64,000 bases of DNA from Limnohabitans sp. Rim8 (lineage in GTDB: Bacteria; Pseudomonadota; Gammaproteobacteria; Burkholderiales; Burkholderiaceae_C): positions 30,735 to 94,734 of the forward strand of contig CAMDKK010000008.1 of the NCBI GenBank assembly GCA_945901045.1, in the 5' to 3' direction. The stretch's first letter is position 1. The number at the start of each line of letters is the position of its first letter. The translations under genes were made by a program, and so were the position numbers. Below, piece after piece: positions 31,354 to 58,022 of the stretch. Below the pieces are notes generated by a model. The model saw nothing but the letters and a program-made list of their open reading frames with translations, was not told where the DNA came from and made no database searches.

Positions 31354-32319
31354 TTATTCTAAAGTTATCTTTCCCGCTTTAATGACTTCTGACCATCTTT
31401 TTTGTTCAGATTGGATATAGTTTTTGAAGTCTTGTGGCGATTGATAAGCGGGTTCCGTTCCCTGTGAGGACAATCTAGACTTTAATTCTGGATTGGCAAG
31501 TGCTTTTTGTATTTCTAAACTGATTCGATCAATGATGGCAGATGGGGTTCCAGTTGGCGCCAAAATACCTTGCCATCCGTAGATGACAAACTCTGGCATA
31601 CCAGATTCTTTGGATGTAACAAGATCAGGGAATGCGGGAGAACGCGATTCACCTGTTAAAACAATAGCTTTGGCACGTCCATCTTTAATAAATGGTTGAA
31701 CAACATTGCCACCATCAATCATGAGTTGAATTCGTGATGTTGCCAAGTCAGTTAAAGCGGGCGCACTCCCTTTGTAGGGAATATGTTGAATTTGTATTTG
31801 TGTTTGTAACTTTAAAAGCTCAACTGCCAAATGATTGCTGTTGCCATTTCCGCCCGAACCAAAATTGAGTGAACCCGGTTTGGATCTTGCTAGTTCCACA
31901 AATTCTTTGAGATTGTTGGCGGGGAGTGAGGTTGGCACTACGGCCACAAACGGAGTTACTACAACGCGTGCTATTGGTAAAAAATCTTTTGATGCATCAA
32001 AAGTAAGTTTGGGATAAAGATACGGATTGACACTTAACATACCCAAATTGCCCATAAGCAATGTATGTCCGTCTGGCTTGGCACGAGCAACATATTCCAT
32101 TGCTAAATTGCCAGATGCACCTGCTTTATTTTCCACAACTACCTTTTGACCAAGTCCAATAGACAACTTTTCGGCTAATTGCCGAGCAACAATATCAACA
32201 CCGCCTCCAGGTGGGAAACCAACTAACAATTGAATGGGTCGATCAAAAGTCGTTTGTGCATAAATGGTCGTTGTAAATAAAAGAGTGATTGCAAGAGAAT
32301 TGAATTTTTTGAACTTCAT
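31354..32319 (-). CDS. Bug/TctC-family periplasmic substrate-binding protein
   Basis: 321 residues: Sec signal peptide (cleavage near IYAQ), then [32 protein letters not shown] and the usual two-lobe length. Last gene of the minus-strand sulfatase run, 34 bases after the preceding sulfatase. Its DNA is clearly AT-richer than the flanking core genes, like the two sulfatases beside it. No TctA/TctB partner is encoded nearby; the ligand is unknown, perhaps a sulfate ester or its product by context. Confidence 0.9.
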   Translation of the reverse strand: MKFKKFNSLAITLLFTTTIYAQTTFDRPIQLLVGFPPGGGVDIVARQLAEKLSIGLGQKVVVENKAGASGNLAMEYVARAKPDGHTLLMGNLGMLSVNPYLYPKLTFDASKDFLPIARVVVTPFVAVVPTSLPANNLKEFVELARSKPGSLNFGSGGNGNSNHLAVELLKLQTQIQIQHIPYKGSAPALTDLATSRIQLMIDGGNVVQPFIKDGRAKAIVLTGESRSPAFPDLVTSKESGMPEFVIYGWQGILAPTGTPSAIIDRISLEIQKALANPELKSRLSSQGTEPAYQSPQDFKNYIQSEQKRWSEVIKAGKITLE

Positions 32320-32353
32320 GTGTAATCCTGATTAATTTTAGGTTGATGAAACT

Positions 32354-33883
32354 TTAATTTTTATCGAGTTCAAGTCCGTAGAGTGAAAATAACTCTTCTG
32401 GAGCGTCATTTTCCATCATTAGTCGGATTAATTTTTTCCGAATTGAAATTTCCAAATCTAAATCATTCAAAGGTTTTCGTTGATCCGGATCTTCATCAAG
32501 ATCAAATAATACTGTTTTAGCATCAAGCAACGGATAGCGTTTAACCATGTTTGCTTTTGTGTCTGGGTTAACCGGTAATCGCCACACAGGAAATCCTTGA
32601 GAAAAAGGCAAGGATTTAATAATTTGAGCATCCTTAAAATCAGCCACTTCAAAAAAAGTTCGCATGTTTGAAGGCATCAATGTGTATTGATAGAGATCAC
32701 CCACTTGCGGGTCCAGTGGATACATAAAATATGAATAGCGACCATCTGTAAAATTGATGGCGGAACCAAATTGGCCGAATATACAACCATCCCGTGATTT
32801 TTTTTCTGAATATTTTTCCATCAAAGGCAACAAGCTGTAACCCGTTACTTGCTCTGGAATATTTTGTTTAAAAATATCTAATATGGTTGGCATGATATCG
32901 ATGGTTTGCGTAAGCACCTTCGATTTTTGAGGAGAACAATTAAAGGAGTTAGGAGGTGCAATAAATAATGGGATGTGTGCTACTTCGTTGTAAAATGGGG
33001 GGCGATTTTTTCCTAAAAATTCTTTTTCGCCTAATAACAACCCGTGATCGGTTGTGAGAATAACCCATGTATCTTCCCATAGATTTTGCTGATCCATTTC
33101 ATCCAAAAACAGACCTAAATAATGATCGCAAGCATCAATCAATGCAGAATAATTAGCTCTGAGTTTATTGAGCAACGAAGGTGAGATATCTGTTCTGCCA
33201 TAGCTTGGCCAATCAAAAATTTTACCACTCAATGCTTCAGGGTAATTTTTTAAAAATCGCTCAGGTGCAAAGAATGGCTCATGCGGATCAAAAAGTTCCA
33301 AATGAAGTAGCCATTGGTCTTTATTTCCATTTTTCTTTAGAAAATCTATCCCTTGATCAAAACATTGCGCAAGTGGAAATTGTTGATTTTTTTCAAGATA
33401 TTCACGATTTATAAAATAAGGTAATTTTGAATTAATATCAGTAGAGAAGTCATGTTGATTTTTTTCATATTTATTTTTATACAAAGCTTCATTCTCTAAA
33501 AATTGCGGCTGCCATTTGTCTTTTTCTTGTCCGCGGATGAACTCCCACGATGAGTATCTACCATGAAAACCTGCTCCACCATCTTCAAAATAATGGTAAT
33601 GGTCCGTAATCAGGTGTGTTATTACGCCTGCACTCCTCAAAATATCGGCAACTGAATGATCAAAAGGTTCAAGTGGCCCCCATCCTCTGTGTAAAAAATT
33701 AAGTCGTCCTGTTTGTATATCACGTCGAGCAGGCATGCAAGGCAAACTACCGACAAAATGTCTCTCGAATTGAACCGATCGTTCAGCTAATCTATCGAAA
33801 TTAGGGGTTAGATGCTGTTTGTTTCCATAGCACGATAGTGCATGCCTATTAAGCGAATCGAAAAGTAAAAAAACAACTTTCAT
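32354..33883 (-). CDS. Type I sulfatase
   Basis: 509 residues. Formylglycine motif CMPAR at 49-53 (SLPCMPARRDIQTGR), first metal ligand Asp9 in LLFDSLNRHALSCYG, second in TTDHGLLLGEKEFLGK. The DSLNRH variant of the N-terminal metal motif marks a distinct sulfatase subgroup. No signal peptide: the protein starts directly with the first beta strand, so it should be cytosolic. The start is five bases from the stop of the next sulfatase gene, and the DNA is AT-rich. Substrate not predictable from sequence. Confidence 0.9.
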   Translation of the reverse strand: MKVVFLLFDSLNRHALSCYGNKQHLTPNFDRLAERSVQFERHFVGSLPCMPARRDIQTGRLNFLHRGWGPLEPFDHSVADILRSAGVITHLITDHYHYFEDGGAGFHGRYSSWEFIRGQEKDKWQPQFLENEALYKNKYEKNQHDFSTDINSKLPYFINREYLEKNQQFPLAQCFDQGIDFLKKNGNKDQWLLHLELFDPHEPFFAPERFLKNYPEALSGKIFDWPSYGRTDISPSLLNKLRANYSALIDACDHYLGLFLDEMDQQNLWEDTWVILTTDHGLLLGEKEFLGKNRPPFYNEVAHIPLFIAPPNSFNCSPQKSKVLTQTIDIMPTILDIFKQNIPEQVTGYSLLPLMEKYSEKKSRDGCIFGQFGSAINFTDGRYSYFMYPLDPQVGDLYQYTLMPSNMRTFFEVADFKDAQIIKSLPFSQGFPVWRLPVNPDTKANMVKRYPLLDAKTVLFDLDEDPDQRKPLNDLDLEISIRKKLIRLMMENDAPEELFSLYGLELDKN

Positions 33884-33888
33884 GGCAA

Positions 33889-35319
33889 TTATCTATAATC
33901 TCGGAAAACATTTTGTGTTTTTAATTGACTCTGCATTCTCCAATTAAACATTTTATTTAACATGTCTTGTTTAATCGATTGGTGGTCATTTGAGTTCCAT
34001 AGATTATGGTTTTCGAGTGGATCTTGTTTTAAATCAAAAAGCTGACCATAAGGAGCGTTTAAAAAATGAACCAATTTCCAGTCTTTGGTTCGTATCATGG
34101 TCATAAACTCCACATCAGTCAATATGTTGTCTCTACCTTGTTCGCAATAAACAGCCTCACGCCCCGCCCAATTTTGTGTTGAAAAAGCATCTTCTAAGCT
34201 TTCAGATTCAATACCTTCGGGTAAGTTTGCATTAGCCTCCTTTAATAACCAAGGAACAACATCCATAGGTTGAATTAATGCATCAATGTGTTTTCCTGCA
34301 GGAACTTTCCCTGGTGCCCAAACAATCATGGGTACTTTTGTGACCTGATCGTACATTGTCCATTTTTGACTGTGACCATGGTCTCCCATACAGTCACCAT
34401 GATCCGAAGTAAAAATTACAATCGTATTTTCTAAATAACCTTTGGTTTTAAGTTGATTTAATATTTTTCCAATGCCATCATCAATCATGGTCACATTAGC
34501 AAGGTAGTGCGCGCGTTGCCGATGTCGATCGGCATCGGTTGGATTGAGTTGATGCACAAGAGAGTCATGATCAATCTCAACGTTGTGTTCTCGCAGAGCA
34601 TGAAACGGAGGTGGTTGACCCTTCAAATCGTCTTCATTTACTTTTTCAATGGGAAGCTTTTTATCGATATAACGCTGTAAATAATCAGGAGTTGGATCAT
34701 AGGGGGGGTGGGGGCCAGGAAATCCAATTTGTAAAAACAAAGGTTCTGTTGGTGGTGCAGTTTCTATCCACCAGCAAGCACGATCAGCAATGAAGTTGTC
34801 TGATTGCGCATCAGCAGGTAGCAACCATTCAAATGCGCCCAATTTTTTTCTGTAATCTGGCATTTGCCGATATTGGACACGTTGTTGTTTGACCAAGCCT
34901 CTGGCGGCAAGTGATCGGTCCCAATCATCAAAGAAGAATCGACCTTCTAAGAATCGATCTTTATTCTCAACAACATAGCGTTGATGAAATCCCGCAGGTG
35001 TATCTAATGGCCATGTGTGCATTTTTCCAACATTGATGCAGGTGTATCCCGCATCAGCTAAGTTTTCAACCCATGTATGACGCCATTTGTCTGCATTTTT
35101 TAAAATACCTGTTGTATGAGCGTAGTAGCCAGTAAATAAACTTGAGCGAGCAGGAACACATGAGGCGCCTGCTACGTGACATTGAGAAAAGTGTGTACCC
35201 TCACGAATTAATCGATCCAGATGGGGCGTCTCCATAAAATCAAATCCTAGACCCGCAATAGTGTCATACCGTTGTTGATCGGTAATGATAAAAATGATGT
35301 GTGGTTGCTGTATTGTCAT
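33889..35319 (-). CDS. Type I sulfatase
   Basis: 476 residues. Formylglycine motif CVPAR at 54-58 (GASCVPARSSLFTGYYAH), metal ligand Asp14 in IITDQQRYDT, and TSDHGDCMGDHGHSQKW. The TDQQRYD start recalls choline-sulfatase/arylsulfatase-like groups, but the specificity is open. No signal peptide. Its AT-rich DNA matches the adjoining sulfatase and Bug gene rather than the upstream arylsulfatase, from which it is separated by a 235-base gap. Confidence 0.9.
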   Translation of the reverse strand: MTIQQPHIIFIITDQQRYDTIAGLGFDFMETPHLDRLIREGTHFSQCHVAGASCVPARSSLFTGYYAHTTGILKNADKWRHTWVENLADAGYTCINVGKMHTWPLDTPAGFHQRYVVENKDRFLEGRFFFDDWDRSLAARGLVKQQRVQYRQMPDYRKKLGAFEWLLPADAQSDNFIADRACWWIETAPPTEPLFLQIGFPGPHPPYDPTPDYLQRYIDKKLPIEKVNEDDLKGQPPPFHALREHNVEIDHDSLVHQLNPTDADRHRQRAHYLANVTMIDDGIGKILNQLKTKGYLENTIVIFTSDHGDCMGDHGHSQKWTMYDQVTKVPMIVWAPGKVPAGKHIDALIQPMDVVPWLLKEANANLPEGIESESLEDAFSTQNWAGREAVYCEQGRDNILTDVEFMTMIRTKDWKLVHFLNAPYGQLFDLKQDPLENHNLWNSNDHQSIKQDMLNKMFNWRMQSQLKTQNVFRDYR

Positions 35320-35358
35320 AAAAATTTTCTTATGGATGACTGGGTTAAGAAAAACAAT

Positions 35359-35532
35359 CTAAGTTGTGAGTCTGAGGTTCATACTAAAACGCGGTGCTTC
35401 TAGCTTATCAAAATCCATTGCATCAGATCTATGGCCCTGAGTTAGTTTCGCTTTCCTTCGTCCAGCTCTAGCCAGACCCTTGGCGTATCCGCCAATTTTA
35501 AATACGCCTTCTAAGATAACGAAATAGAACAT
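35359..35532 (-). CDS. Small ORF of unknown function or gene remnant (57 aa)
   Basis: An uninterrupted 57-codon frame begins with ATG at 35532, preceded by TGAGGTAA, and ends in TAG at 35359. The product is basic in its middle (ARAGRRKAK) and has no signal or recognised domain. It fills the gap between the arylsulfatase and the AT-rich sulfatase, on the same strand. It may be a real small gene or the 3' end of one lost when the two halves of the locus joined. No homologue comes to mind. Confidence 0.3.
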   Translation of the reverse strand: MFYFVILEGVFKIGGYAKGLARAGRRKAKLTQGHRSDAMDFDKLEAPRFSMNLRLTT

Positions 35533-35554
35533 TTACCTCAATAAAAGCAGTGTT

Positions 35555-37792
35555 TCATTGCTCTTGCAGGATTGCACTGAAAGAATTTGTTTCGAGCTGC
35601 GAATCAGCATCCACCTCGATAATGACATGCTCCATGCGCAATCCGCTGACCGCATTCAGAGGTAGGCATTCGTCAGTCACTGGGATGTTGCCATGCCCAC
35701 AGGTCAAGCCACCAGTCATGCCAAAAATTAACCAAGTTCGTTTGACTTGGGCCGACCCTGCATGTTTCCCATTAGCCCACAGATCAAATCGGCCGGCACG
35801 TTCGCCGGTGCGTGCAAATGACACTTCCAATAGGGTATCGCCTAGGGCCAGGGATACTTCGAGGCGATGCACCAGACTCTCATGCACGGCGTAAGTGAAA
35901 ACTGCCATGCTATTTTGGCAATGAAGCTGGTAGCCACCAAAACGACTGCCGCAAGCTACCAGTATTCCGTGCGCACCCGGCTGCACTTCACGCAGCTGAG
36001 CATGCATACGCCAACTGCGATCGTTGATGGGTGGAACCAGTTGACGGTCCAGACGAGCCATCCCAGGCTGCAGCTCGAAGCGCCTGGGCACCTGCCGGCG
36101 GGACCACTCCAAGGATCGCTCGATATCGCGGTCGTCAAGCGGCAACACGCCGAAGCGATGGGCTTCTTCCCACCACAGATCGATCAGTTCACGCAACTTT
36201 CCCGGGTGCTGGTCAGCCAGATCCTTGATTTCTGCAAAGTCCTGATCAAGGTGGTAAAGCTCCCAACGGTCGGCGTCAAAATCGTCACCCTTCGTGTGTC
36301 GGGCCACCGCTTTCCAGCCTGAGTGCCAGACAGCCCGGTCCCCTGCCATCTCGAAGTGCTGGGTTTGCTTGCGGGTCGGTGCATCGGCCTGGTCGAAAGA
36401 GTAAGCCATGCTTACGCCATGAAGAGGTATCTGCTCATGGCCATGGTGCACTTTAGGCGGTTGCAAACCCAGAGTTTCAAGAAGCGTGGGCACTATATCG
36501 CTAACGTGATGATACTGGTGACGGATGCCACCCTGGTCACGTATCTTGGCAGGCCAGTGCACCAAAAGAGGTGCACGGATGCCACCGCCATGGGTATTTC
36601 GCTTGAACCATTTGAGCGGGGTATTGGAAGCCTGCGCCCAACCCATGGGATAGTGCGGAAATGAATACTCGCTGCCAATCTTGTCAATATGCGCAAGGCC
36701 ATACTCGAGCGTTTCTCGCTCCATGCTCATGTGCCGGCGAATATTGACTGCACCTGTCGGGCCGCCCTCTCCCGAGGCACCATTGTCCGAAAGAAGCACG
36801 ATTGCAGTGTTCTCCATCTGGCCGGTGGAGGCCAGGTAGTCGATCAGCCGTCCAATCTGATCGTCGGCGTGAGAGAGAAAGCCCGCGTATGTCTCCTGCA
36901 ATTTGGCACACAGTGCCTGCTCCTGCGGCGACAGTGATGACCAGGCCCGAACGTTCGGGTTGGGTGGCGCAAGGGATGTTTCGGCGGTCAACAGACCCAT
37001 CGTCTTTTGGCGTACCAGTCGTTTCTCGCGCACGGCGTCCCAGCCATCGTCAAAACAGCCTTTGTATTTGTCTATCCATTCCTGGGGAACATGCAGGGGC
37101 CAGTGCCCAGCACCGAGCGCTAGGTAGGTCAGCCAAGGTCTGCCGGGCGCAGAGGTGACGTGATCGCGCACGTACCCAATTGCATGATCGACTAGGTCCT
37201 CGGTAAGGTGGTAGCCCTTGCGTGGCTCGCGCTGAACGGGGTGGTTGTCCTCATGCAGATCTGGATTCCAATGATCGATGAAGCCGCCTAGAAATCCATA
37301 CCAGCGGTTGAAGCCCTTGCCCAGTGGCCAATACTCGCGCGAACCGCCTGTAGGGTAGTCGCCCATATTGGCCAGATGCCATTTGCCAACCGCATAGGTT
37401 CCGTAGTCATAGGGCAACAACATTTGGGCGATGGTGGCAGCTTCCGGCGTGATTCGCCCCTGGTAACCAGGAAAGCCGGTTGACCATTCGGCGATTGCAC
37501 CCATGCCGACGGCATGCGCGTTACGTCCTGTGAGCAAAGCGGCCCGTGTGGGAGAACACATGGCGGTGACATGGAAATTGCTGTAACGCAAACCGGCCCC
37601 GGCCAAGGCGTCCATGCGAGGTGTCTGGATTTCAGAGCCGTAGCAACCTAGATCGGAGTAGCCAACATCATCAAGCACGATGAACAAGATGTTCGGCGCG
37701 CCAGGGGTTTGGGCTGGCGGCGCGGGATACCAAGGTTCGGAGTCATGCCATGTGCGACCAATTCGACCTTCAAAGGAATTTTTATTCATCAT
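35555..37792 (-). CDS. Large arylsulfatase
   Basis: 745 residues, the long arylsulfatase type with a C-terminal extension after the catalytic domain. Motifs: LDDVGYSDLGCYG (Asp41/Asp42), formylglycine motif CSPTR at 79-83 with AALLTGRNAH, YAVGKWHL, and LLSDNGASGEGG. The first ~33 residues are hydrophilic (EGRIGRTWHDSEPWYP), so there is no signal peptide and a cytosolic location is likely. Its DNA composition resembles the ABC genes upstream. Lies five bases from the Bug gene at 37798 and is likely co-transcribed with it. Confidence 0.93.
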   Translation of the reverse strand: MMNKNSFEGRIGRTWHDSEPWYPAPPAQTPGAPNILFIVLDDVGYSDLGCYGSEIQTPRMDALAGAGLRYSNFHVTAMCSPTRAALLTGRNAHAVGMGAIAEWSTGFPGYQGRITPEAATIAQMLLPYDYGTYAVGKWHLANMGDYPTGGSREYWPLGKGFNRWYGFLGGFIDHWNPDLHEDNHPVQREPRKGYHLTEDLVDHAIGYVRDHVTSAPGRPWLTYLALGAGHWPLHVPQEWIDKYKGCFDDGWDAVREKRLVRQKTMGLLTAETSLAPPNPNVRAWSSLSPQEQALCAKLQETYAGFLSHADDQIGRLIDYLASTGQMENTAIVLLSDNGASGEGGPTGAVNIRRHMSMERETLEYGLAHIDKIGSEYSFPHYPMGWAQASNTPLKWFKRNTHGGGIRAPLLVHWPAKIRDQGGIRHQYHHVSDIVPTLLETLGLQPPKVHHGHEQIPLHGVSMAYSFDQADAPTRKQTQHFEMAGDRAVWHSGWKAVARHTKGDDFDADRWELYHLDQDFAEIKDLADQHPGKLRELIDLWWEEAHRFGVLPLDDRDIERSLEWSRRQVPRRFELQPGMARLDRQLVPPINDRSWRMHAQLREVQPGAHGILVACGSRFGGYQLHCQNSMAVFTYAVHESLVHRLEVSLALGDTLLEVSFARTGERAGRFDLWANGKHAGSAQVKRTWLIFGMTGGLTCGHGNIPVTDECLPLNAVSGLRMEHVIIEVDADSQLETNSFSAILQEQ

Positions 37793-37797
37793 CTGAA

Positions 37798-38769
37798 TTA
37801 ATCTAGCTTGAGGTTGGCCTTGCGCAGAGTCTGACCCAGTGTGTCGAACTCAGCAGCCAAAACCTTGCTGAACGCATCACTATCCCGGTAGAAGATCTGC
37901 TGTTGCGATGCCTTGGACGTACTGACATAGCGCTCGCTTTTAACCGCATCCTCGCAGGCCTCATTGAGTACCTTTATTGCTTGGGCGGGCATGCTCTTGG
38001 GTACATAGAGTCCACCAAACACTCTCGCCACTACGGGAATGCCTTGCTCAGTCATGGTCGGCGCTTCGGGTGCCTCGGGCAAGCGGCTAGGGGTAAATAC
38101 GCCAAGGATGCGAAAGCCCTGCGTCTGTGCTGCGCCCACTGACAGTGAGGCCAGTTGCAGTTCGCCTGACTTGAGAGCCAAAACGAGAGGTGGATCACCG
38201 CGATACTGCACTGCACGCATGGCGGTACCACTTTGCAAAGAGAACATCACGGCACCGATGTGCGGCATGGTTCCCGTGCCACCAGAACCGTAGGTTACGC
38301 CCTCACCCTTGGCGTCGGGATCATTCAGTACGTCGCGCAGGTTCCGGTACTTACTGCTGTTCGAGGTTACCAACGCATAGTTGTTAACAAAGGTCTGGCA
38401 GATTCCAACCATATCGCTAAATTTATAGGGTAGATTGGTCTTAATGTGGGGCTGCAGAACCAGCGGACCCGCAGGCCCGAAAACAATGGTGTGACCGTCC
38501 TCGGCCTTGGCGCCCGCAGCCATTCCGATTGTTCCACTCGCTCCGTCGCGGTTCATCACCACCACGTTCTGTCCTAGCCTAGCCGTAAGGGCTTCGCCAA
38601 AGGCTCGTGCCAACACATCGACCGAACCACCGGCCGGAAACCCTACCAGCATCTGCACTGTCCTGGTCGGCCAAGCCAAGACCGCCTGAGCTTGCGTGAG
38701 CAAAAGCGCAGCAATCAATAAGCCATGACGATTGAATTGTTTTTTCAGTTTAGCCATCTTTTTACCCAT
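37798..38769 (-). CDS. Bug/TctC-family periplasmic substrate-binding protein
   Basis: 323 residues with a signal peptide (LLIAALLLTQAQAVLA) and the hallmarks LVGFPAGGSVDVLARAFGE, VVVMNRDGASGTIG and a KLD end. The usual ENKAG is here MNRDG, a small deviation in the ligand loop. Flanked by the AroE-like gene (31 bases) and the arylsulfatase (5 bases), all on the minus strand. No TctAB genes are present. Confidence 0.9.
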   Translation of the reverse strand: MGKKMAKLKKQFNRHGLLIAALLLTQAQAVLAWPTRTVQMLVGFPAGGSVDVLARAFGEALTARLGQNVVVMNRDGASGTIGMAAGAKAEDGHTIVFGPAGPLVLQPHIKTNLPYKFSDMVGICQTFVNNYALVTSNSSKYRNLRDVLNDPDAKGEGVTYGSGGTGTMPHIGAVMFSLQSGTAMRAVQYRGDPPLVLALKSGELQLASLSVGAAQTQGFRILGVFTPSRLPEAPEAPTMTEQGIPVVARVFGGLYVPKSMPAQAIKVLNEACEDAVKSERYVSTSKASQQQIFYRDSDAFSKVLAAEFDTLGQTLRKANLKLD

Positions 38770-38800
38770 TTAACAGTGAAGAAAAAAATACGATTGGGCA

Positions 38801-39619
38801 TCAATACTGTGATTTCAAATCAAAGTAATCGCCGCGCCAGAACTCAATCTGAACAGCCAATTGGTGGTCCATCATGGCGCGACCTCCCAGCACCTGCAGA
38901 TTACGCGCTTGTGCAGCAGACATCAGTTCAGTGTCACGGGCTGCAATGATGTCGAAAAATACAGCATCGTCTCGAAGGATGGCGGCGTCGAACGGTGAAC
39001 GGTCACCTTTGTGAAGCCCCATGGGTGTGGCATTCACTGCCAATCCGGCTCTGGCCAAAGCTTCCAGCCTGTTTCCCAATAGGATTTTGGGAAAGTTATT
39101 TTGTAAAGAATTCAGCAGGGCAGTGGAGCGTTTAGGGTCCATGTCGACAACATCGATAGTTGTGACACCAGCTTTGGCGAGAGCGAAAGCAATAGCGGTC
39201 CCAGCACCTCCGGCCCCTGCAATGAAGACTGAACGAGTCAGGTCTAGCATGCCATGGGCACGCAACGCATTCGTGAAACCGATGCCGTCGGTGTTCGTAC
39301 CTGACCAGTTGCCACCCTCTTCAAGCCGAAGTGTATTGACCATGCGAGTAACGCGTGCCTCCTCAGTCACCCATTGGCAGAGGGTGAAGGCCTGCGCTTT
39401 GTGTGGGATGGTCAAATTTACTCCTTGCAGGTTAGTTACCTTGGCCAGTTGCCCGAGCGTGGCAACAAGGTCCTGAGGGTCGACACCCATGGGCACCATA
39501 AACCAATCTAGTTCTCGCGCAGCGAACGCAGGGTTATAAGCACCAGGCGCAATCACGTGATCAACTGGGCACGCAAGTATCGGAACTAACTTTGTCTTTC
39601 CGCTCACATCAGTCAGCAT
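38801..39619 (-). CDS. AroE-like shikimate/quinate dehydrogenase homologue
   Basis: 272 residues with the AroE fold: substrate domain with catalytic lysine in NLTIPHK and aspartate in GTNTDGIGF, NAD(P) domain with AGAGGAGTAIAFALAKAG, and NATPMGL. The two serines that grip the substrate carboxylate in AroE (HSxSP) are missing; the segment reads CPVDHVIAPGAYN. A role other than aromatic-amino-acid synthesis is therefore likely, for instance oxidising another cyclic polyol. Start ATG 39619 follows a strong GGGGTGAG site; a GTG at 39640 would overlap the permease gene. Confidence 0.82.
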   Translation of the reverse strand: MLTDVSGKTKLVPILACPVDHVIAPGAYNPAFAARELDWFMVPMGVDPQDLVATLGQLAKVTNLQGVNLTIPHKAQAFTLCQWVTEEARVTRMVNTLRLEEGGNWSGTNTDGIGFTNALRAHGMLDLTRSVFIAGAGGAGTAIAFALAKAGVTTIDVVDMDPKRSTALLNSLQNNFPKILLGNRLEALARAGLAVNATPMGLHKGDRSPFDAAILRDDAVFFDIIAARDTELMSAAQARNLQVLGGRAMMDHQLAVQIEFWRGDYFDLKSQY

Positions 39620-39623
39620 TTGC

Positions 39624-40430
39624 TCACCCCTTGACTGCACCAGCAGTCAATCCGCTGACCAGATAACGACGCACTAAAAGTGAGAAAACCAAAACAGGCG
39701 CCATCACCAACGAACCGCCAGCAGCAATTTTTCCCCACTCCCATCCTTCGTAATTCATGAAGTTCACCACCGCAACCGGTGCTGTCCGCGCTTCAGTGCG
39801 TGTGAGAATTAGGGCAAAGAAAAAGTCGTTCCACGCATATAAAAAACACAAAATTGCAGTTGCCGCGATACCCGCTGAAGCCACCGGCATGACGATCTCA
39901 GCGAATACCGTTGGAAACCCGGCTCCGTCCATGAGCGCGGCCTCTTCGAGAGAGGCAGGCACAGCATCAAAAAATGGTTGCATCATCCAAATGACCAACG
40001 GTAAATTGAATGTCATGTAGATCAAAATCAATCCGGTGCGGGTATCTAGCAGACCCAGCCAGCGATAGGCCAGGAAAAACGGGATGGTGAACGCAATGGG
40101 AGGTGCCATGCGCGTCAGAAGAATACCCAAGCCCAAACCGAATTTTCCGCGCCCACTCCAGCGTGACAATGCGTAGGCTGCGGGTACGCCCATCAAAAGT
40201 GCCAGGGCCGTGGACAGTGTGCTGGTAATTAAACTGTTCACAAAAGACTCTGGGAATCCATCCTTCCACAACCCCACGTAATGTTCGAGCGTAGGTGTAA
40301 AAAAAAGTTGCGGGGGAAACTCCAAAATCAATGGGGTCGGTTTGAATGACATCTGAAGCAGCCATAAAAACGGCATCAACATCAGAATCAGCAGCAAAGG
40401 AACTGCCCAGAGAATAATATGTTTTTTCAT
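39624..40430 (-). CDS. Carbohydrate-type ABC permease (MalG-like)
   Basis: About 268 residues, six membrane segments, EAA loop EEAALMDGAGFPTVFAEIVMPV, C-terminal end with FSLLVRRYLVSGLTAGAVKG as in the MalG/UgpE family. The ATG at 40430 overlaps the stop of the other permease (ATGA). Forms the inner-membrane channel with its partner, driven by the ATPase encoded at 43647. Typical substrates of the family are sugars, polyols and glycerophosphodiesters. Confidence 0.92.
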   Translation of the reverse strand: MKKHIILWAVPLLLILMLMPFLWLLQMSFKPTPLILEFPPQLFFTPTLEHYVGLWKDGFPESFVNSLITSTLSTALALLMGVPAAYALSRWSGRGKFGLGLGILLTRMAPPIAFTIPFFLAYRWLGLLDTRTGLILIYMTFNLPLVIWMMQPFFDAVPASLEEAALMDGAGFPTVFAEIVMPVASAGIAATAILCFLYAWNDFFFALILTRTEARTAPVAVVNFMNYEGWEWGKIAAGGSLVMAPVLVFSLLVRRYLVSGLTAGAVKG

Positions 40431-41323
40431 TCTATTGGCTGGCTCGTGCGACTTGCGCGCATTGCCGCCCAACTGATCAATACGGTTAGAGAAAGAAGCA
40501 CCACAGTGATTGCGCTGGAGTACCCCAGCTCGCCGAAATTAAATGCGACCAGGTAGGCGTAATAATTCGTGACCTCTGTCACAGATCCCGGTCCGCCACC
40601 TGTCAAAAGAAAGATTAACGGAAAAGCTTTGATGCTGTCTATCACCCGAAATAAGGTGCAAACCAATAGAACTGGGGCAATATAGGGAAGAACTATGTGC
40701 CAAAAAACAGCAATCGTGTCAGCACCATCCATGCGTGCCGCTTCAACATACTCACTGGGCAAAGTCTGAAGAGCAGCTAGAACCATCAAAAAAGTGAAAG
40801 GTGCCCATTCCCATGTATCTGCAATGACGATAGCCCAAAGGGCAAAGTCCACATGTGTTGTAAGCGAAGGCAACACAATACCAATTGCTTTAGCTGCACG
40901 ATAAATGGGGCTGATGTCTGGGGTGTAAATCAGCTTCCAAATAACGGCGACGACAATGGGTGGTAACACCATGGGTATGACAAACAGATGTCTTAAAGAC
41001 TGCCATCTTCCCTGACCTGCATGCACCAGTAAAGCCATTGAAGTTCCAATTAAAACCTGCATCGTCACGGTGTACAAACTTAACTTGGCTTGAACCCACA
41101 AGGAACCTACGAATCGCTCGTCGCTGAGCAACAACGTGTAGTTTCGAAATGGATTGGAAAAGTCTGTTAAGGAGCCTGGATTGACCAAGGCTGCCGGAGT
41201 CAAACTGGTGATGATGAGGAACAAGGTAGGAAGGCCTGCCACCAGAATCAGAAAGAGTAGGCTGGGGGCAAAGGCCTGACGCGCAAAACGGCGCCGCTGG
41301 CTTTCGTAGGATACTGAGGCCAC
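40427..41323 (-). CDS. Carbohydrate-type ABC permease (MalF/UgpA-like)
   Basis: 298 residues; membrane segments begin after a basic N-terminal tail (SQRRRFARQAF). EAA loop YVEAARMDGADTIAVFWHIVLPYI is present, followed by LTGGGPGSVTEV, a MalF-family signature. The start appears to be GTG at 41323, 12 bases after the binding-protein gene. Partner of the MalG-like permease. Confidence 0.92.
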   Translation of the reverse strand: MASVSYESQRRRFARQAFAPSLLFLILVAGLPTLFLIITSLTPAALVNPGSLTDFSNPFRNYTLLLSDERFVGSLWVQAKLSLYTVTMQVLIGTSMALLVHAGQGRWQSLRHLFVIPMVLPPIVVAVIWKLIYTPDISPIYRAAKAIGIVLPSLTTHVDFALWAIVIADTWEWAPFTFLMVLAALQTLPSEYVEAARMDGADTIAVFWHIVLPYIAPVLLVCTLFRVIDSIKAFPLIFLLTGGGPGSVTEVTNYYAYLVAFNFGELGYSSAITVVLLSLTVLISWAAMRASRTSQPIE

Positions 41324-41335
41324 GGTGGAGCAGAA

Positions 41336-42691
41336 TTAAACCTTGGCACCACTGCGACGCAAGCTGCTTAGTGCAGCTTCTTGCGCAACGCGCATGGATT
41401 CAGCAGCCGGCATTTGCCCTGAAACAACACGCTCGACTGCTTTGTTCACCACATCGCCCATCAATGGAAATTCTTTGACCGTTCGATAAGCCATGTAATT
41501 GCGACCTGCAGCAGGTTGTTGCAAAACATCCAGATAGAGCTTGCCAATATCTTGCCCATTGATGGTGTTTAGGCGTTTGTATTCGGCACTCTCAATGACA
41601 GAGCGGCGGCAGATGGACGCATGGCCGGTGTCTTTGACAATCCGCGCTGTGAGCTCCGGGCTTAATGCCCATTGAATAAATGCCCACGCGGCTTCCTTAT
41701 TTTTTGCGTTCTTGGGAATGCCCAATCCCTGGCTATTGGCGGCAGGGAAGTCGCCCTTTGGCCCAGTCGGCATGCGCGTAACGAGTGCGGTTTCCTTGAC
41801 TTTACTGTCCTGCGAAGTGAGCATAGCCGTGACCCACGAACTGGAATGAATAAATATATTCGATCGTCCGCCAAGCAAAGCTGCACGCGCCTGATCTTCG
41901 GTATAACCAAGAACGCCCTGAGGACTGTACTTCGATAAAAGACGACCGTAATAATCTACTGCCTGCACGGCTGCTGCGCTGTCCAAAGTTGGCCGAATGT
42001 CGCCCGGTGGGTTGGCAAAAATATCACCACCAAATCCATGCATGTAAGGCGGCAGAAACCAGTGGTGCAGATTGGAACTCACAAAGCCCGTCACATCTTG
42101 TTGCCCGTGTATCCCATCGGCAACCTTCATCAAGTCGTCAAACGTCCTGGGTACGGACAAGCCACGCTTTTTCATCAGATCCATCCGGCTGATCCCCATC
42201 AACATCGCGCCCCCTTCCCATGAGTAGCCATAGGTTTTGCCATCTTTATCGACGTAAGGAACCTGCGCTCCTTTGACAAAGTCGTCAGGATTCCAATTGG
42301 CGGGTGTGAGCTTGCGGTCGCCACTAAAGTCATCAAGATTGCTCAGCAGCCCAGCTGAAATCCAGCGGGCGGCCAGAATGAAGGTGACATTGCAGAAGTC
42401 CCAAGCACTGCCACCACTGGAGAGTTCGAGATCGGCTTGCTGGTTGTATACGGGAAATGCTGAAAGTTGCAGGTCAACCGTCATGCCTGTTGCGGCTTCG
42501 AACTCAGGAATGTATTTACGCAGATGATTGAAGAATCCGTGCTGATAGGCAGCGCCGCGCAGCTTAAGCCCAGCAAAAGGCTTACTTTGCGCAATTGCTG
42601 GCATGCCCAGTGTTGCACCGGCAGTCACGCCAGCGGCTTGCTGTAACAGCGTGCGGCGGGAGAGCGGTTTGGCGGCTAAGTTAAAGGTCAT
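41336..42691 (-). CDS. Carbohydrate-type ABC binding protein with Tat signal
   Basis: 451 residues, family 1 extracellular binding protein. A twin-arginine signal LSRRTLLQQAAG at 10-21 precedes a hydrophobic stretch and AIAQ cleavage, so export in folded form is expected. Typical features: YIPEFEAATGMTVDL and the KEAAWAFIQWALSPE helix. First gene of the long minus-strand run, with an AGGAG ribosome site, facing a divergent regulator across a region with operator-like repeats. Confidence 0.92.
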   Translation of the reverse strand: MTFNLAAKPLSRRTLLQQAAGVTAGATLGMPAIAQSKPFAGLKLRGAAYQHGFFNHLRKYIPEFEAATGMTVDLQLSAFPVYNQQADLELSSGGSAWDFCNVTFILAARWISAGLLSNLDDFSGDRKLTPANWNPDDFVKGAQVPYVDKDGKTYGYSWEGGAMLMGISRMDLMKKRGLSVPRTFDDLMKVADGIHGQQDVTGFVSSNLHHWFLPPYMHGFGGDIFANPPGDIRPTLDSAAAVQAVDYYGRLLSKYSPQGVLGYTEDQARAALLGGRSNIFIHSSSWVTAMLTSQDSKVKETALVTRMPTGPKGDFPAANSQGLGIPKNAKNKEAAWAFIQWALSPELTARIVKDTGHASICRRSVIESAEYKRLNTINGQDIGKLYLDVLQQPAAGRNYMAYRTVKEFPLMGDVVNKAVERVVSGQMPAAESMRVAQEAALSSLRRSGAKV

Positions 42692-42735
42692 TTTGGGTCT
42701 CCTGTGTTTGTCATGTAATCAGTTTAAAAATTAAT

Positions 42736-42748
42736 TTTGACTGACAAA
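42736..42748. promoter_or_regulatory. Operator-like palindrome, site B
   Basis: TTTGACTGACAAA, one mismatch from the FadR-family consensus TNGTNNNACNA, lies 45 bases upstream of the binding-protein gene and could overlap its -35 region. A weaker third match, TTTGTCATGTAAT, lies at 42707-42719. Confidence 0.5.
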
Positions 42749-42823
42749 TAAAAATTTAAAATGAGTGGAAACCCTGAAATTAAATTTGTAATTTCCAATA
42801 TACTGCTAATTAAACACAATATA

Positions 42824-42836
42824 TTTGTATGACAAA
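42824..42836. promoter_or_regulatory. Operator-like palindrome, site C
   Basis: TTTGTATGACAAA is a perfect 5-base inverted repeat around three bases and fits TNGTNNNACNA exactly, the known operator form of FCD-type GntR regulators. It lies 51 bases upstream of the regulator start and just downstream of a possible -10 TATACT (42799-42804), a position suited to autorepression. Confidence 0.6.
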
Positions 42837-42887
42837 TAAAGGCAATTGCAGATCTTATCGGCGCACTGCAAGTCAGATCGGGACGCT

Positions 42888-43607
42888 ATGAGTAGTACAG
42901 CCATATTCGAGCGCAAAACCACTCAGTCAGTCACGGAAATGCTTGCTCGTCGAGTGGTGGAAGGCGAGTGGGATGAGGGTCAACCATTGCCATCTGAGCC
43001 CGAATTAGCGCAAGAGTTGGGTGTAGCGCGCACGTCCGTTCGCGAGGCACTGATGCGAATCAAAGCCAAGGGCTTGCTGGTTTCTCGGACCAAAACTGGA
43101 ACGCGCGTTCTGCCACGACTCCAATGGAACATGCTGGACGAGGACGTGCTGCGGTGGGTATGGAGCGGACAGGACAAGATGGCCGCAGCGCAGCATCTGA
43201 TGCAACTTCGCCGAATTGTTGAACCCGCTGCAGCAGAGATCGCAGCAAGCACAGCAGAAGATTCTTCCATTGCAGCCATCGAGCGTGCATACCACAACAT
43301 GGATGCCGCAGGACTTGATCGGGCGGCTTATGCAGGGCCAGACCTTGAATTTCATCGCGCTATTCTGGTTGCTACTGGAAACCCCTTTCTGGTCGCGTTT
43401 GGCAACGGAATTCAAGCTGCTCTGCGTATGTCATTCGAGCTCTCTACCCTACAGCCCGGCGCTCCACGCAATAGCCTTCCATTGCATCGCGCAGTCCTCG
43501 ACGCAATCTGGTCACGCAAACCGGAGCAAGCAAAAGAGGCTATGAACGTACTTTTGAGCCTCACAGAAGCTAACATCCAGCGTGGGTTAGCTAATCGCGT
43601 TGGATGA
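42888..43607 (+). CDS. FadR/GntR-family transcriptional regulator (FCD domain)
   Basis: 239 residues. Winged helix-turn-helix at the N-terminus (PLPSEPELAQELGVARTSVREALMR, read as two parts) and an all-helical FCD ligand domain with EPAAAEIAA, DLEFHRAILVATGNPFL and the LHRAVLDAI helix providing Asp/His metal ligands. Start ATG 42888. It probably senses an organic acid or sugar-acid intermediate and controls both the divergent ABC-sulfatase genes and the ATPase gene that follows 39 bases later. Confidence 0.92.
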   Translation: MSSTAIFERKTTQSVTEMLARRVVEGEWDEGQPLPSEPELAQELGVARTSVREALMRIKAKGLLVSRTKTGTRVLPRLQWNMLDEDVLRWVWSGQDKMAAAQHLMQLRRIVEPAAAEIAASTAEDSSIAAIERAYHNMDAAGLDRAAYAGPDLEFHRAILVATGNPFLVAFGNGIQAALRMSFELSTLQPGAPRNSLPLHRAVLDAIWSRKPEQAKEAMNVLLSLTEANIQRGLANRVG

Positions 43608-43646
43608 CCGTGTGGTTTTTACCTCCATTCCTAACTTCAGAGTCTT

Positions 43647-44747
43647 ATGAGCGATATTCATCTCAAGTCCATCACGAAGTTCTTTGGTGATGTTGAAGTC
43701 ATTCCAATTCTCGATCTGCACATTCCCGACGGCAAGTTCACTGTGCTCCTTGGTCCCTCTGGGTGTGGCAAAAGCACTTTGTTGCGGATGATCGCAGGTT
43801 TGGAGACACCCAGCAGCGGCCAGATACTTCTCGGAGATCGAGTGGTTAACGACGTGCCCCCTTCCGAGCGCGGATGCGCTCTGGTTTTCCAGAATTACGC
43901 GCTTTACCCCCACAAAACAGTACGACAGAACCTGGCCTTCCCGCTGCGCATGGCCAAAGTCAGTCAACTCGAACAGGATCGCCTTGTTGGAGAAACCGCC
44001 CACATGTTGGAACTCACATCGTTGCTTGAGCGATATCCGCGCCAGCTTTCGGGCGGCCAGCGCCAGCGCGTAGCGATGGGGCGAGCCATGATCCGCAAGC
44101 CTCAGGTCTTTCTATATGACGAACCTCTTTCCAATCTGGACTTGGAGTTGCGTGTGCGCTTACGGCTTGAAATTGCCCGCATGCAACGGCAACTGAAATC
44201 CACGGCGGTGTATGTGACCCATGATCAGACCGAAGCCATGACACTGGCAGACCAGATCGTTGTGCTTCGAAACGGACATATTGAACAGATTGGCGCTCCC
44301 TTGGAGTTGTACCGCAAGCCGGCCAACCTGTTTGTAGCCGGATTTATCGGAACGCCGCGGATTAACTTGTTCACAGTAGACCGAAGTGAGGTTTCGGGCG
44401 CGGATACAGTTTTGCATATCGGCACCTCCCAAATCAATGTGCCTCTTCATGTGTCGTCTGATATCCGGACAATTGGGTTTCGTCCTGAGCAGGCTAAGCT
44501 GATACCTGCGGGCAGCACTTTACCGGGACACGTGCTGTTAGAGCTTTATGAATGTGAAACTCAGGCCATGGAGCACTTGGGTGACCGAGCATACTGCTAC
44601 CTTCGGACAAACATGGGGGAACTTGTTGTACTTTCACCTGATGTCGATTCCTCTTTACAGGGTAAGCTTAGCATCGCCATAGAAGCAAGAGAGTTGCACT
44701 TTTTTGATGCGCAAGAAGCAGCACTTCACATGACGACTCCTGATTAA
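43647..44747 (+). CDS. Carbohydrate ABC ATPase (UgpC/MalK-like)
   Basis: 366 residues: Walker A GPSGCGKST, Q-loop FQNYALYPHKTV, signature QLSGGQRQRVAMGRA, Walker B FLYDEPLSNLD, and a C-terminal OB-type regulatory domain (LFTVDRSEV to IGFRPEQAKLI). It supplies the only ATPase for the importer whose other subunits are divergent at 39624-42691. A decayed IS fragment begins about 50 bases after its stop. Confidence 0.93.
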   Translation: MSDIHLKSITKFFGDVEVIPILDLHIPDGKFTVLLGPSGCGKSTLLRMIAGLETPSSGQILLGDRVVNDVPPSERGCALVFQNYALYPHKTVRQNLAFPLRMAKVSQLEQDRLVGETAHMLELTSLLERYPRQLSGGQRQRVAMGRAMIRKPQVFLYDEPLSNLDLELRVRLRLEIARMQRQLKSTAVYVTHDQTEAMTLADQIVVLRNGHIEQIGAPLELYRKPANLFVAGFIGTPRINLFTVDRSEVSGADTVLHIGTSQINVPLHVSSDIRTIGFRPEQAKLIPAGSTLPGHVLLELYECETQAMEHLGDRAYCYLRTNMGELVVLSPDVDSSLQGKLSIAIEARELHFFDAQEAALHMTTPD

Positions 44748-48715: not shown

Positions 48716-49798
48716 ATGACAACCGAAAGTGCGATTAACTTGTCCCAAGGCTTCGCGAATTCGCCCAACACCAGCACATCGGTCGATTCCTTAACGAAAA
48801 GCCGACTTGACACTGTTCGCTTGCAGAACATCGCGCTTGCTTATTGGCATTCGGCCGCGCTCATGACTGCCGTCGAATTGGGGTTATTTACCGCTGTTTC
48901 GAAAGGTGCCTGCAACAACGTGGAAGTTGCCTCGGCCATTGGAATTTCGGTCACCAATGCAGAACGACTCACCACCGTGTGCGTTGCGCTCGACTTGCTT
49001 AAGTCGAACGAACATGGATTTTTCAATGCGCCAGATGTAGAGCGTTTTCTGGTTGAAGGTGCCCCAGGCTACGCTGGTCAGTGGATGTTGTTCACCAAGC
49101 CGCAATGGAACGATTGGGGCCGACTCACCGAATTGATAAAGAACGGCAAGGAGACGGTCCTAGGCTCTTACGAGAATTTCACAGTCGAAGATGCGCGTCG
49201 CTATCATGACTCCACTTACAGCATCGGATTAGGCGCTGGTCGCCGCTTCGTGCGCCATGTGGATATGTCCTCGCGACTGAAACTGCTTGATATTGGTGGC
49301 GGTTCTGGTTGCTACAGCATCGTAGCGGCGCAGGCTCATCCACTGTTACATGCAACAGTTTTCGACTTGCCACCGGTTGCGCAAGTGGCACGCGGGTTCA
49401 TCGCCCGCCACGGCGTCTCCGAGCGTGTCACCACCGTAGGTGGCGACTTCACACGTGACCCATTCCCGCAGGGCAACGACATCGCCATCATGGCCAGCAA
49501 CTTGCCACAATACAGCCGTGAAATTATTGCGCAAGTTATTCGAAAGGCCTTTGAATCGTTGACGCCCGGCGGAGAGTTTCATCTGCTGGGTGAGATGCTG
49601 ACCGATGACCGCAAGGGGCCCTCAAGTCCAGCCTTGTGGGGGTTGAACGAGGCCATAGCTGGCAGCACAGGCGTAGCGCACACAGAGCAGGAATGCATCG
49701 ATTACCTTTGCGCGGCAGGATTCACAGACGTCGCAGTGCACTCTTTCATCGAAGGAACATTGTCGCGTGTGTGTGGAATTCGTTCGAAAAAGGATTGA
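48716..49798 (+). CDS. SAM-dependent O-methyltransferase (family 2 type)
   Basis: 360 residues. N-terminal helical dimerisation/winged-helix domain (AYWHSAALMTAVELGLFTAV), then the Rossmann methyltransferase domain with motif I LLDIGGGSGCYSI, DLPPV, and GDFTRDPFP. It resembles acetylserotonin/hydroxyneurosporene-type O-methyltransferases acting on phenolic or enolic hydroxyls. Followed three bases later by an SDR gene and then a Bug gene, forming a three-gene unit. Substrate unknown. Confidence 0.85.
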   Translation: MTTESAINLSQGFANSPNTSTSVDSLTKSRLDTVRLQNIALAYWHSAALMTAVELGLFTAVSKGACNNVEVASAIGISVTNAERLTTVCVALDLLKSNEHGFFNAPDVERFLVEGAPGYAGQWMLFTKPQWNDWGRLTELIKNGKETVLGSYENFTVEDARRYHDSTYSIGLGAGRRFVRHVDMSSRLKLLDIGGGSGCYSIVAAQAHPLLHATVFDLPPVAQVARGFIARHGVSERVTTVGGDFTRDPFPQGNDIAIMASNLPQYSREIIAQVIRKAFESLTPGGEFHLLGEMLTDDRKGPSSPALWGLNEAIAGSTGVAHTEQECIDYLCAAGFTDVAVHSFIEGTLSRVCGIRSKKD

Positions 49799-49801
49799 AC
49801 C

Positions 49802-50671
49802 GTGGTGAACTACAGAACGGTATTTCGCCCTGACCTCTTTGCAGGCAAGGTTGTCATTGTGACGGGTGGCGGGAGCGGCATCGGAAGATGCATGGCACAT
49901 GAATTGGTTTCCCTTGGCGCTCGGGTCGCGCTCGTTGGTCGCACCATAGCCAAGCTTGAATCCGTGCGAGCCGAACTGGGCGGTGACGCTATTGCAAAAA
50001 TCTATTCCTGCGACATTCGCGATGCGACGCAGGTTCGCGCAACGGTGGGCGCAATACTCGCCGATTTTGGCCATGCAGAGGGATTGATTAACTGCGCCGG
50101 AGGCCAGTTTCCAGCGCCTCTTCGCGACATCAGCGAGAACGGCTGGAACGCAGTGGTGCGCAACAATCTCACCGGTTGCTTCCTGTTCATGCGTGAAGTC
50201 TATGTGGCCTGGATGGAAGCCCACGGCGGCGCCATAGTGAATATTGGCGCAGATTTTCAGGGTGGCATGCCGGGCATGGGCCACAGCGGCGCAGCACGAA
50301 GCGGGCAAGCAAGCTTAACCTTCGCAGCTTCTGTCGAGTGGGCGCATGCAGGCGTTCGCGTGAACATGGTCCAACCCGGCTTCATCGCCTCTTCAGGTCT
50401 TGACCACTACCCCTCAAGCGCAGCCGGAACACTACGCAACGTCGCCAATCATGTACCGATGAAGCGCCACGGTACCGAATCTGAAATTTCGGCGGCAGCC
50501 GTGTTTCTGTTATCGGAAGCTGCATCCTATACCAATGGTGCCGTTTTACGGATTGATGGCGGTTTACATCACAACACAAACACCAGTTTCTATCCGCTGC
50601 CAGAAAAGGCTCAGTCGGCGCCTTATATAGGTTTTCCTCTTTACAAGCGGCCTGCAGTTCTAGATGAATAG
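49802..50671 (+). CDS. Atypical SDR-family oxidoreductase
   Basis: 289 residues with GTG start at 49802 (AAGGA seven bases upstream). The cofactor motif VTGGGSGIGRCMA and NCAGGQFPAPL are normal, but the YxxxK active site is replaced by HSGAARSG. This matches the 2,4-dienoyl-CoA reductase-like SDR branch, in which the Tyr is displaced, although Lys is here Arg. Enoyl/dienoyl-CoA reduction is therefore a possibility; the substrate is unproven. Lies between the methyltransferase and Bug genes. Confidence 0.82.
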   Translation: MVNYRTVFRPDLFAGKVVIVTGGGSGIGRCMAHELVSLGARVALVGRTIAKLESVRAELGGDAIAKIYSCDIRDATQVRATVGAILADFGHAEGLINCAGGQFPAPLRDISENGWNAVVRNNLTGCFLFMREVYVAWMEAHGGAIVNIGADFQGGMPGMGHSGAARSGQASLTFAASVEWAHAGVRVNMVQPGFIASSGLDHYPSSAAGTLRNVANHVPMKRHGTESEISAAAVFLLSEAASYTNGAVLRIDGGLHHNTNTSFYPLPEKAQSAPYIGFPLYKRPAVLDE

Positions 50672-50693
50672 AAATGATATTTAAGGAAATACC

Positions 50694-51677: not shown

Positions 51678-51788
51678 GCAAAGCTCAGCTAATGGACTTT
51701 AGCTTAGGGGTCAATAGTGAATCGGCGCCAACAAAATTTTTGACTCCTAGCCCCGACATCGAACAGCGCCCATAGCAAGTGAGGGAAT

Positions 51789-51989
51789 TCATCTGCGTCC
51801 GCGGCGAGGTGCCTTGTTCATCGAAGTGCCGCGAACAGGCTGTGGCGCCTTGATTGTGGTGCCAAAGGCATGCAGCCCATTTTCCAAGATCGAAAAGATT
51901 TGAGCCGGCAGGTCTTCAGGAGACAAGCCCTCCTCCAGATACCAGGAAGTCATCCAGTGCAGGGTTCCGAACAGCGCAAAACTGGCGAT
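51789..51989 (-). pseudogene. TetR-family regulator, C-terminal remnant
   Basis: Minus-strand frame ASFALFGTLHWMTSWYLEEG...IFSILENGLHAFG is typical of a TetR ligand-domain C-terminus. Upstream the frame meets TAG, and the IS6-like element starts 36 bases further on, so the DNA-binding half is gone. Probably the former regulator of a catabolic gene set. Confidence 0.65.
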
Positions 51990-52024
51990 CTATGGCTCGC
52001 AAGGGCAGATGAAGCCGTTGGCAA

Positions 52025-52828: not shown

Positions 52829-52836
52829 CCGCCTAG

Positions 52837-52986
52837 GGCCTGGATACAGCAAAAAACCACGCTTTGCAACATGCATTCTTGGAAGTGAACGCAGGTCAGT
52901 GCGGCTATTGCCTGAGTGGCATCTTGATCAGCGCAAACGCTTTGTTACAACACACCCCAGATCCAACGTGGGCGCAGATTTGTCAC
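52837..52986 (+). pseudogene. 2Fe-2S subunit fragment of a molybdenum hydroxylase
   Basis: The peptide ALQHAFLEVNAGQCGYC followed by LSGILISANALL is the second-cluster region of the small 2Fe-2S subunits of xanthine dehydrogenase-type enzymes (normally QAAQCGYCxxGMIM). It begins nine bases after the IS right end and loses similarity after TWAQI, so both ends are missing. Nothing recognisable follows up to 53128. Confidence 0.7.
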
Positions 52987-53128
52987 CCGAGTTCACAGGA
53001 ATTTAAGGACACAGGGTTAAACTTAATTGAAATTTATTGCCATTTGAGGTTCACTACATGGAATAAAGAATGCAGTTTGTGTATCTCTTTAGAATTAAGC
53101 TTGCCGACAATTTTAAAATGGAGTAGAT

Positions 53129-55877: not shown

Positions 55878-55907
55878 GGGATGAACAAACTATCGCCCTT
55901 TAGTAAC

Positions 55908-58020: not shown

Positions 58021-58022
58021 AT

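Follow-up and report, generated by a model that had tools for sequence, protein, structure and literature searches.

A proposed catabolic locus for an organosulfate or sugar in Limnohabitans, with an AroE-family protein outside the shikimate clade

We describe an eleven-gene locus (positions 31354 to 44747) in a stretch of 64,000 nucleotides from Limnohabitans sp. Rim8 (assembly GCA_945901045.1, contig CAMDKK010000008.1, positions 30,735 to 94,734; hereafter the window), in which the genes of an ATP-binding cassette (ABC) importer stand beside three sulfatase genes and a gene for an AroE-family protein, here called AroEL. Each gene named below was checked as an open reading frame at the position given. 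An earlier note, made from the letters of this DNA, had placed ten genes in one direction; we saw nine running leftward on the minus strand, from 42691 to 31354: SBP, PermF, PermG, AroEL, Bug2, Sulf3, Sulf2, Sulf1 and Bug1. The FadR-type regulator and the ABC ATPase are oriented on the plus strand, opposite the nine. Junctions within the leftward set are, as the note had reported, short: from −46 bases (the overlap of PermG and PermF) to 34 bases, with a single exception of 235 bases.

The importer consists of a family-1 solute-binding protein, SBP (41336..42691, minus strand; PF01547/PF13416), with a twin-arginine-like signal seen by eye, two permeases, PermF (40427..41323) and PermG (39624..40472; both minus strand, PF00528), whose order is conserved in relatives, and the ATPase (43647..44747, plus strand). 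The Pfam scan covered ten of the eleven locus proteins and agreed with the note on the two Bug proteins, three sulfatases, AroE-like protein, importer proteins and GntR/FadR regulator. The ATPase, identified by tblastn alone, is 67–85% identical to ATPases adjoining FadR in related Burkholderiales loci. A family-1 SBP, two BPD_transp_1 permeases and a MalK-type ATPase (the last by tblastn only) characterize a CUT1 sugar-type importer. The regulator (42888..43607, plus strand) carries a GntR DNA-binding domain and an FCD domain (PF00392 and PF07729), the composition of the FadR subfamily. Two starts proposed earlier have been moved: for the regulator, the ATG at 42888 is more likely than 42846; for AroEL, the predicted ATG at 39619 (272 amino acids), matching the start of the nearest relative in related locus L065, is more likely than 39640.

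One SBP scan of a genome collection (84,980 species) returned 94 relatives, and 80 loci were kept; as the scan was seeded with the SBP only, an AroEL or Sulf2 apart from this importer would escape it. Many of the genomes are near-duplicates, hence the counts below are not independent events, and the relatives' genes were called by a home-made codon-usage caller with approximate starts. The SBP tree of 76 sequences (five of 81 loci were dropped: L064 and L065 with partial SBP, L116-L118 outside the SBP cluster) separated three well supported groups, A, B and C, with long branches meeting flagged by the program. Group A contains the window and, with partial loci, 28 further loci from 27 genomes. 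One of the loci in the tree, L062, titled Frankia sp. RB7, groups inside Bradyrhizobium; the assembly may be mislabelled or contaminated.

The conserved core, regulator plus importer plus AroEL, recurs in Burkholderiales and in Bradyrhizobium, which exceeds chance. AroEL stands after the permeases in 20 of the 25 group A genomes that could be judged (of 27; contigs L044 and L049 end too early). Sulf2 is present in 18 of the 27 genomes (in two of them cut by a contig end), absent in seven and undecidable in two; in all 18 it lies within about 4 kb of the SBP, in two distant lineages and at differing positions. The nearest relative, a Comamonadaceae metagenome-assembled genome represented by two contigs (L064 and L065, SBP pieces 94 and 95% identical), has Sulf2 behind the ATPase, with a GC content at third codon positions (GC3) of 0.44. 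Thus, Sulf2 belongs to the system and has moved position. With the importer present but Sulf2 absent from the stretch fetched in seven of 27 genomes, the sulfatase is a variable module of the locus. No ATPase was found in the stretch fetched for the Bradyrhizobium loci. The co-occurrence across genomes expected in the earlier note held for the regulator, importer, AroEL and Sulf2 and failed for the full nine-gene order, present in none of the 80 loci; we rejected the nine genes as one conserved operon, since conservation across relatives is limited to parts of the set. When the window's family was searched with AroEL (299 genomes, counting that of the window), the best match in another genome was 37% identical, so the locus is rare and patchy.

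AroEL (38801..39619, minus strand; PF08501 over cut-off) scored 137.7 bits on the AroE model TIGR00507, below the cut-off of 200.2; the canonical AroE of the same genome, on contig C6, scored 243.6. With a canonical copy on C6 and a score under the AroE cut-off, AroEL was rejected as the biosynthetic AroE. The canonical enzyme carries Ser-Lys-Ser at the carboxylate site; AroEL has H-V-x-A-P there in 17 of 17 aligned sequences, with Val22 and Ala24 invariant and both serines missing. The catalytic Lys74 and Asp111 are invariant in the same 17, and Asn68, Thr70, Asn95 and Gln253 are likewise kept; the roles of these positions (carboxylate-binding serines, catalytic Lys and Asp, and others) we take to be those known from AroE structures; a look at PMC7144000 for such residues yielded none. 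In a short tree search, with long branches flagged, AroEL formed one clade, of non-shikimate type, against 31 other AroE-like proteins. A weak match (66 bits) was found to a 5-ketofructose reductase (PDB 7cok); in the excerpted text of PMC7954740 such a reductase is related to shikimate dehydrogenases, and a similar Clostridium protein is inactive on that sugar. AroEL probably acts on a sugar or polyol rather than on a shikimate-type acid.

The AroE-like proteins used for comparison form a large Burkholderiaceae family (L010-L038, L136, L137) in which 25 of 31 lack both carboxylate-site serines; the first position of the site is Ser in none of the 31, and the second is Ala in 25. To judge from these residues, many genes annotated as shikimate dehydrogenase may have other substrates.

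Sugar-acid enzymes adjoin the importer in several relatives. Six of the seven Sulf2-free group A genomes (L040-L043, L046, L051) have, shortly past AroEL, genes for an HpaI-family aldolase and for a dehydratase of the arabinonate type (four of the six dehydratases were tested and were just over the NCBIfam cut-off), with a TauE-family gene in three of these six loci; the pair occurs in none of the 18 Sulf2-bearing genomes, and L039 has a biosynthetic-type IlvD. A galactonate dehydratase gene is adjacent to the ATPase gene, or separated from it by one gene, in L039, L048, L049 and L052 (three tested, over the NCBIfam cut-off), accompanied in three of these loci by a KDPGal-type aldolase (two tested). 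A single MR/MLE dehydratase common to Variovorax and Bradyrhizobium was rejected: identity is only 29–33%, and clustering had merged the two. No dehydratase or aldolase gene was found in the window locus; the genome's best matches to the arabinonate-type dehydratase are 50% and 47% identical. Given the galactonate- and arabinonate-type dehydratases that adjoin in relatives, the simplest activity to propose for AroEL would be oxidation, at C1, of a sugar of galactose or arabinose type. The ring-hydroxyl oxidation proposed in the earlier note, at another ring position, is possible but less favoured by these dehydratases than C1. A galacto-type sugar oxidised at C1 is nevertheless a doubtful specification.

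All three sulfatases lie on the minus strand and combine the PF00884 fold with a C-x-P-x-R motif, as type I (formylglycine) sulfatases do. Sulf2 (33889..35319), the sulfatase of the conserved locus, has C-V-P-A-R, with Cys, Pro and Arg invariant in 11 aligned sequences; the motifs of the 745-residue arylsulfatase-like Sulf3 (35555..37792; C-S-P-T-R) and of Sulf1 (32354..33883; C-M-P-A-R) were read from the translations. The closest solved structures to Sulf3 are those of the 1hdh arylsulfatase group (291–298 bits), and all three proteins are under the NCBIfam cut-offs for choline sulfatase, PRK13759 arylsulfatase and PehA. Seven PF03781 matches, of the family of the formylglycine-generating enzyme (FGE), are over the cut-off in the genome, two being adjacent pieces. 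Inspection by eye, with no prediction tool, found no obvious signal peptide on Sulf1, Sulf2 or Sulf3; desulfation inside the cell, as earlier proposed, fits this, and a cytoplasmic reaction is likely. Elsewhere in the window, another sulfatase-like gene (9326-10867), with the motif C-G-P-G-R, lies after genes resembling those of a peptide-type ABC importer (3793-9299, by eye).

Each of the two TctC/Bug receptor genes adjoins a sulfatase gene: Bug2 (37798..38769) precedes Sulf3 and Bug1 (31354..32319) follows Sulf1 (both minus strand, PF03401; 27% identical to each other). The Bug2-Sulf3 pair recurs in three relatives, L045, L052 and L065 (there cut by the contig end), with Bug2 orthologs ahead of Sulf3. 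For Bug1-Sulf1 no counterpart was present in any relative's locus fetched, and Sulf1 had no ortholog in related loci; the pair looks like an addition to the locus. These absences, together with the seven genomes of 27 without Sulf2, speak against the earlier view of all genes as one system. In base composition, too, the left end differs: Bug1 (GC3 0.30), Sulf1 (GC3 0.29) and Sulf2 have GC 0.37–0.41 and GC3 0.29–0.32, as against 0.49–0.57 and 0.51–0.61 in the other eight genes, and the break coincides with the 235-base gap. This AT-rich three-gene stretch (31354-35319; GC3 about 0.3 amid surroundings of 0.5–0.6 or more) suggests foreign origin. Promoter and terminator scans, which bear on whether Bug1-Sulf1-Sulf2 is a separate transcript, gave no excess over shuffles (13 versus 16.9 and 14 versus 15.5).

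The genome (12 contigs) has 18 PF00884 and, fragments included, 146 PF03401 matches. For ten of these 18 sulfatases a Bug domain lies no more than 700 bases away, where 11% each is expected, about five times the even-spread expectation (P about 6e-6), and at 1500 bases the count is still ten of 18 (P about 2e-4), under a null that spreads about 138 Bug domains evenly, takes no account of gene clustering and counts the window's own pairs too. The pairing of Bug and sulfatase genes thus recurs in this genome, and Bug1-Sulf1 can less readily be assigned to this one pathway.

Oxidative cleavage of sulfate esters is the activity of the alkylsulfatase AtsK. Immediately upstream of the SBP, and on its strand, a gene for an AtsK-like protein is present in 43 of the 44 group B loci. 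The upstream proteins are 53–94% identical to that of L072, the one tested, whose closest solved relative is AtsK (PDB 1oih, 382 bits, versus 169 bits for E. coli TauD); the L072 protein scores below the cut-off of the NCBIfam model for taurine dioxygenase, and the title of one PDB entry among its matches calls a relative a sulfate ester dioxygenase. The best indication of a sulfate-ester cargo, which we consider probable, is that two sister clades of importers are tied to two unrelated enzymes for sulfate esters; the organosulfate import proposed in the earlier note thus gained independent backing from the dioxygenase beside the sister importers, while its aryl glycoside option gained none. 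A phosphodiesterase-like gene of the AlkP superfamily (one tested, PF01663) comes after the ATPase in L077 (14177-15973), in L073 and in L094, the last being the sole group B locus that lacks the AtsK-like gene. In group C a DapA-family gene stands upstream of the SBP in five of five loci, with dihydroxyacetone-kinase genes in three.

The gap between SBP and FadR contains two operator-like sites fitting TNGTCNKWCA, one by the SBP start (42738..42747) and one 88 bases away by the FadR start (42826..42835; both minus strand). FadR is divergent from the SBP in 17 related loci and the window; 13 of these 18 have two sites, all 87–89 bases apart, three have one and two have none. Site density is 5.39 per kb inside versus 0.126 per kb outside, a ratio inflated by deriving the motif from the same loci; the fixed spacing played no part in its choice. 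The operator type of the FadR subfamily is TNGT-N3-ACNA, which one window site fits exactly and the relatives' common TNGTCNKWCA merely resembles. The sites fit a putative control by the facing regulator, as the earlier note had supposed.

We read the locus as one for the catabolism of an organosulfate or sugar, infrequent yet conserved, with AroEL as its one truly puzzling enzyme. In the system that we propose, the FadR-type regulator would control the divergent unit, and the exported SBP and the ABC importer would carry a sulfate ester into the cytoplasm, where Sulf2, activated by a formylglycine-generating enzyme, would take off the sulfate; the Bug2-Sulf3 and Bug1-Sulf1 pairs might broaden the range. 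AroEL would oxidise the sugar so released, with C1 as the likeliest position, giving a lactone or a sugar acid for degradation by a galactonate/arabinonate-type dehydratase and an aldolase, which here would have to come from elsewhere in the genome. That a sulfated sugar or small sulfated glycoside is catabolised for carbon in this way, with AroEL as its dehydrogenase, we hold to be about evenly balanced between true and false. One could speculate, with considerable doubt, that AroEL founds a class of AroE-fold sugar dehydrogenases opening a De Ley-Doudoroff-like route for hexose sulfates, within an importer family that pairs with the desulfating chemistry of each lineage (a hydrolytic sulfatase in this locus, a dioxygenase of AtsK type in the sister clade). 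The usual galactose dehydrogenase of the De Ley-Doudoroff pathway is, to our knowledge, not AroE-like.

Several observations weigh against this proposal. Serine loss is not peculiar to AroEL, being shared by the 25 of 31 AroE-like proteins mentioned. Five Bradyrhizobium loci (L057 with a remnant, L059, L060, L061, L063) are without AroEL yet have Sulf2, so AroEL is not always needed, and the seven Sulf2-free genomes have the importer but no Sulf2 in the stretch fetched. In the five group C loci no sulfatase was seen. PF03781 matches need not be formylglycine-generating enzymes; the one HpaI-family aldolase tested of the six, a Pfam match, was under every NCBIfam cut-off; and the genome has no close galactonate dehydratase (best match 36% identical).

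An unsulfated cargo (a sugar, polyol or cyclitol, with AroEL oxidising a ring hydroxyl and the sulfatases, nearby by chance, serving other substrates) would agree with the closest solved relatives of the SBP, which bind sorbitol and neutral sugars, and with the sugar-acid genes found without sulfatase in group C and six group A loci; with 18 sulfatases in the genome, nearness is also less telling. We regard it as unlikely: Sulf2 is kept in two distant lineages at varied positions, always about 4 kb or less from the SBP (18 genomes), and a sulfate-ester enzyme of another kind accompanies 43 of the 44 sister-clade importers. Use of sulfate esters as a source of sulfur rather than carbon seems to be the role of the sister loci with AtsK, several of which also carry SsuABC-like importer genes, but is very improbable here. 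The one SsuA-like protein tested was under its NCBIfam cut-off, and dehydrogenase, dehydratase and aldolase genes adjoin in the window's clade, whose regulator is of FadR type; such regulators usually answer to carbon substrates.

A sulfonated sugar of sulfoquinovose or sulfofucose type would make the core a sulfo-Entner-Doudoroff (sulfo-ED) or sulfofucolytic variant, AroEL a sulfosugar dehydrogenase and the sulfatases accessory. Sulfatases, as far as we know, are inactive on sulfonates, and Sulf2 is present in 18 of 27 genomes. The HpaI-family aldolase and sugar-acid dehydratase adjoining AroEL in six loci, three with a TauE-family gene, do recall the published sulfofucose route, which in the excerpted text of PMC12421959 shares the ABC importer, a galactonate-dehydratase-family enzyme, the HpaI-family aldolase and TauE; however, the dehydrogenase described there belongs to PF13561, of the short-chain dehydrogenase/reductase (SDR) type, and works with a lactonase, and no lactonase was recognised among the neighbours scanned. 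Among the matches of the SBP profile is SmoF, a sulfoquinovosyl-binding protein (34 bits), though only as 23rd of 28. For the window, given its sulfatases, a sulfate ester is more likely than a sulfonate, and a sulfonated cargo seems improbable; the Sulf2-free Variovorax loci, three with a TauE-family gene, could be such a sulfonate pathway.

As the earlier note had supposed, this gene set was not found described in the open PMC literature (subscription papers lie outside that scope). Sulfofucose degradation by SfcH/D/F/E resembles the relatives' loci in its importer and its galactonate-dehydratase-family and HpaI-family enzymes, and some published clusters also have no lactonase; it differs in an SDR-type instead of an AroE-like dehydrogenase and in a sulfonate instead of a sulfate-ester substrate, and the main text of the paper mentions no sulfatase, in contrast to the locus here (PMC12421959). 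Of the four-enzyme sulfofucose/sulfo-ED set (SDR dehydrogenase, lactonase, dehydratase, aldolase) none is in the window locus, and six relatives have, among the genes scanned, only the dehydratase and aldolase. In the excerpts of PMC12890257, the sulfo-ED route of sulfoquinovose likewise oxidises, dehydrates and cleaves the sugar, and sulfo-ASDO desulfurises by a dioxygenase (one sulfoquinovose route uses SqoD), comparable to our sister clade; the substrate there is a sulfonate, and neither an AroE-like enzyme nor a sulfatase is named. AtsK (PDB 1oih) has its counterpart in the sister clade and none in the window's clade, with its hydrolytic sulfatases. The 5-ketofructose reductase (PDB 7cok; excerpt of PMC7954740) is an AroE-family enzyme acting on a sugar, as proposed for AroEL, in another context, and the De Ley-Doudoroff pathway, as excerpted in PMC12421959, oxidises D-galactose by a dehydrogenase, then dehydrates and cleaves it, without a sulfatase.

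In water and soil, sulfate esters, sulfated sugars among them, make up large pools that are little monitored. A regulated, conserved locus for one such ester would supply a genetic marker and a testable pathway, and would put right the label 'shikimate dehydrogenase' that automatic annotation gives to a clade of catabolic enzymes. As for the importer family, a comparison of its two sister clades, which differ in their desulfating enzymes, offers a way to its cargo. Beyond the locus, window positions 48716-63531, read by eye, hold genes for a methyltransferase, an SDR protein, two Bug proteins, cupin proteins, a metallo-hydrolase, an amidase and a peptide-type ABC importer, which may form another island of catabolic genes.

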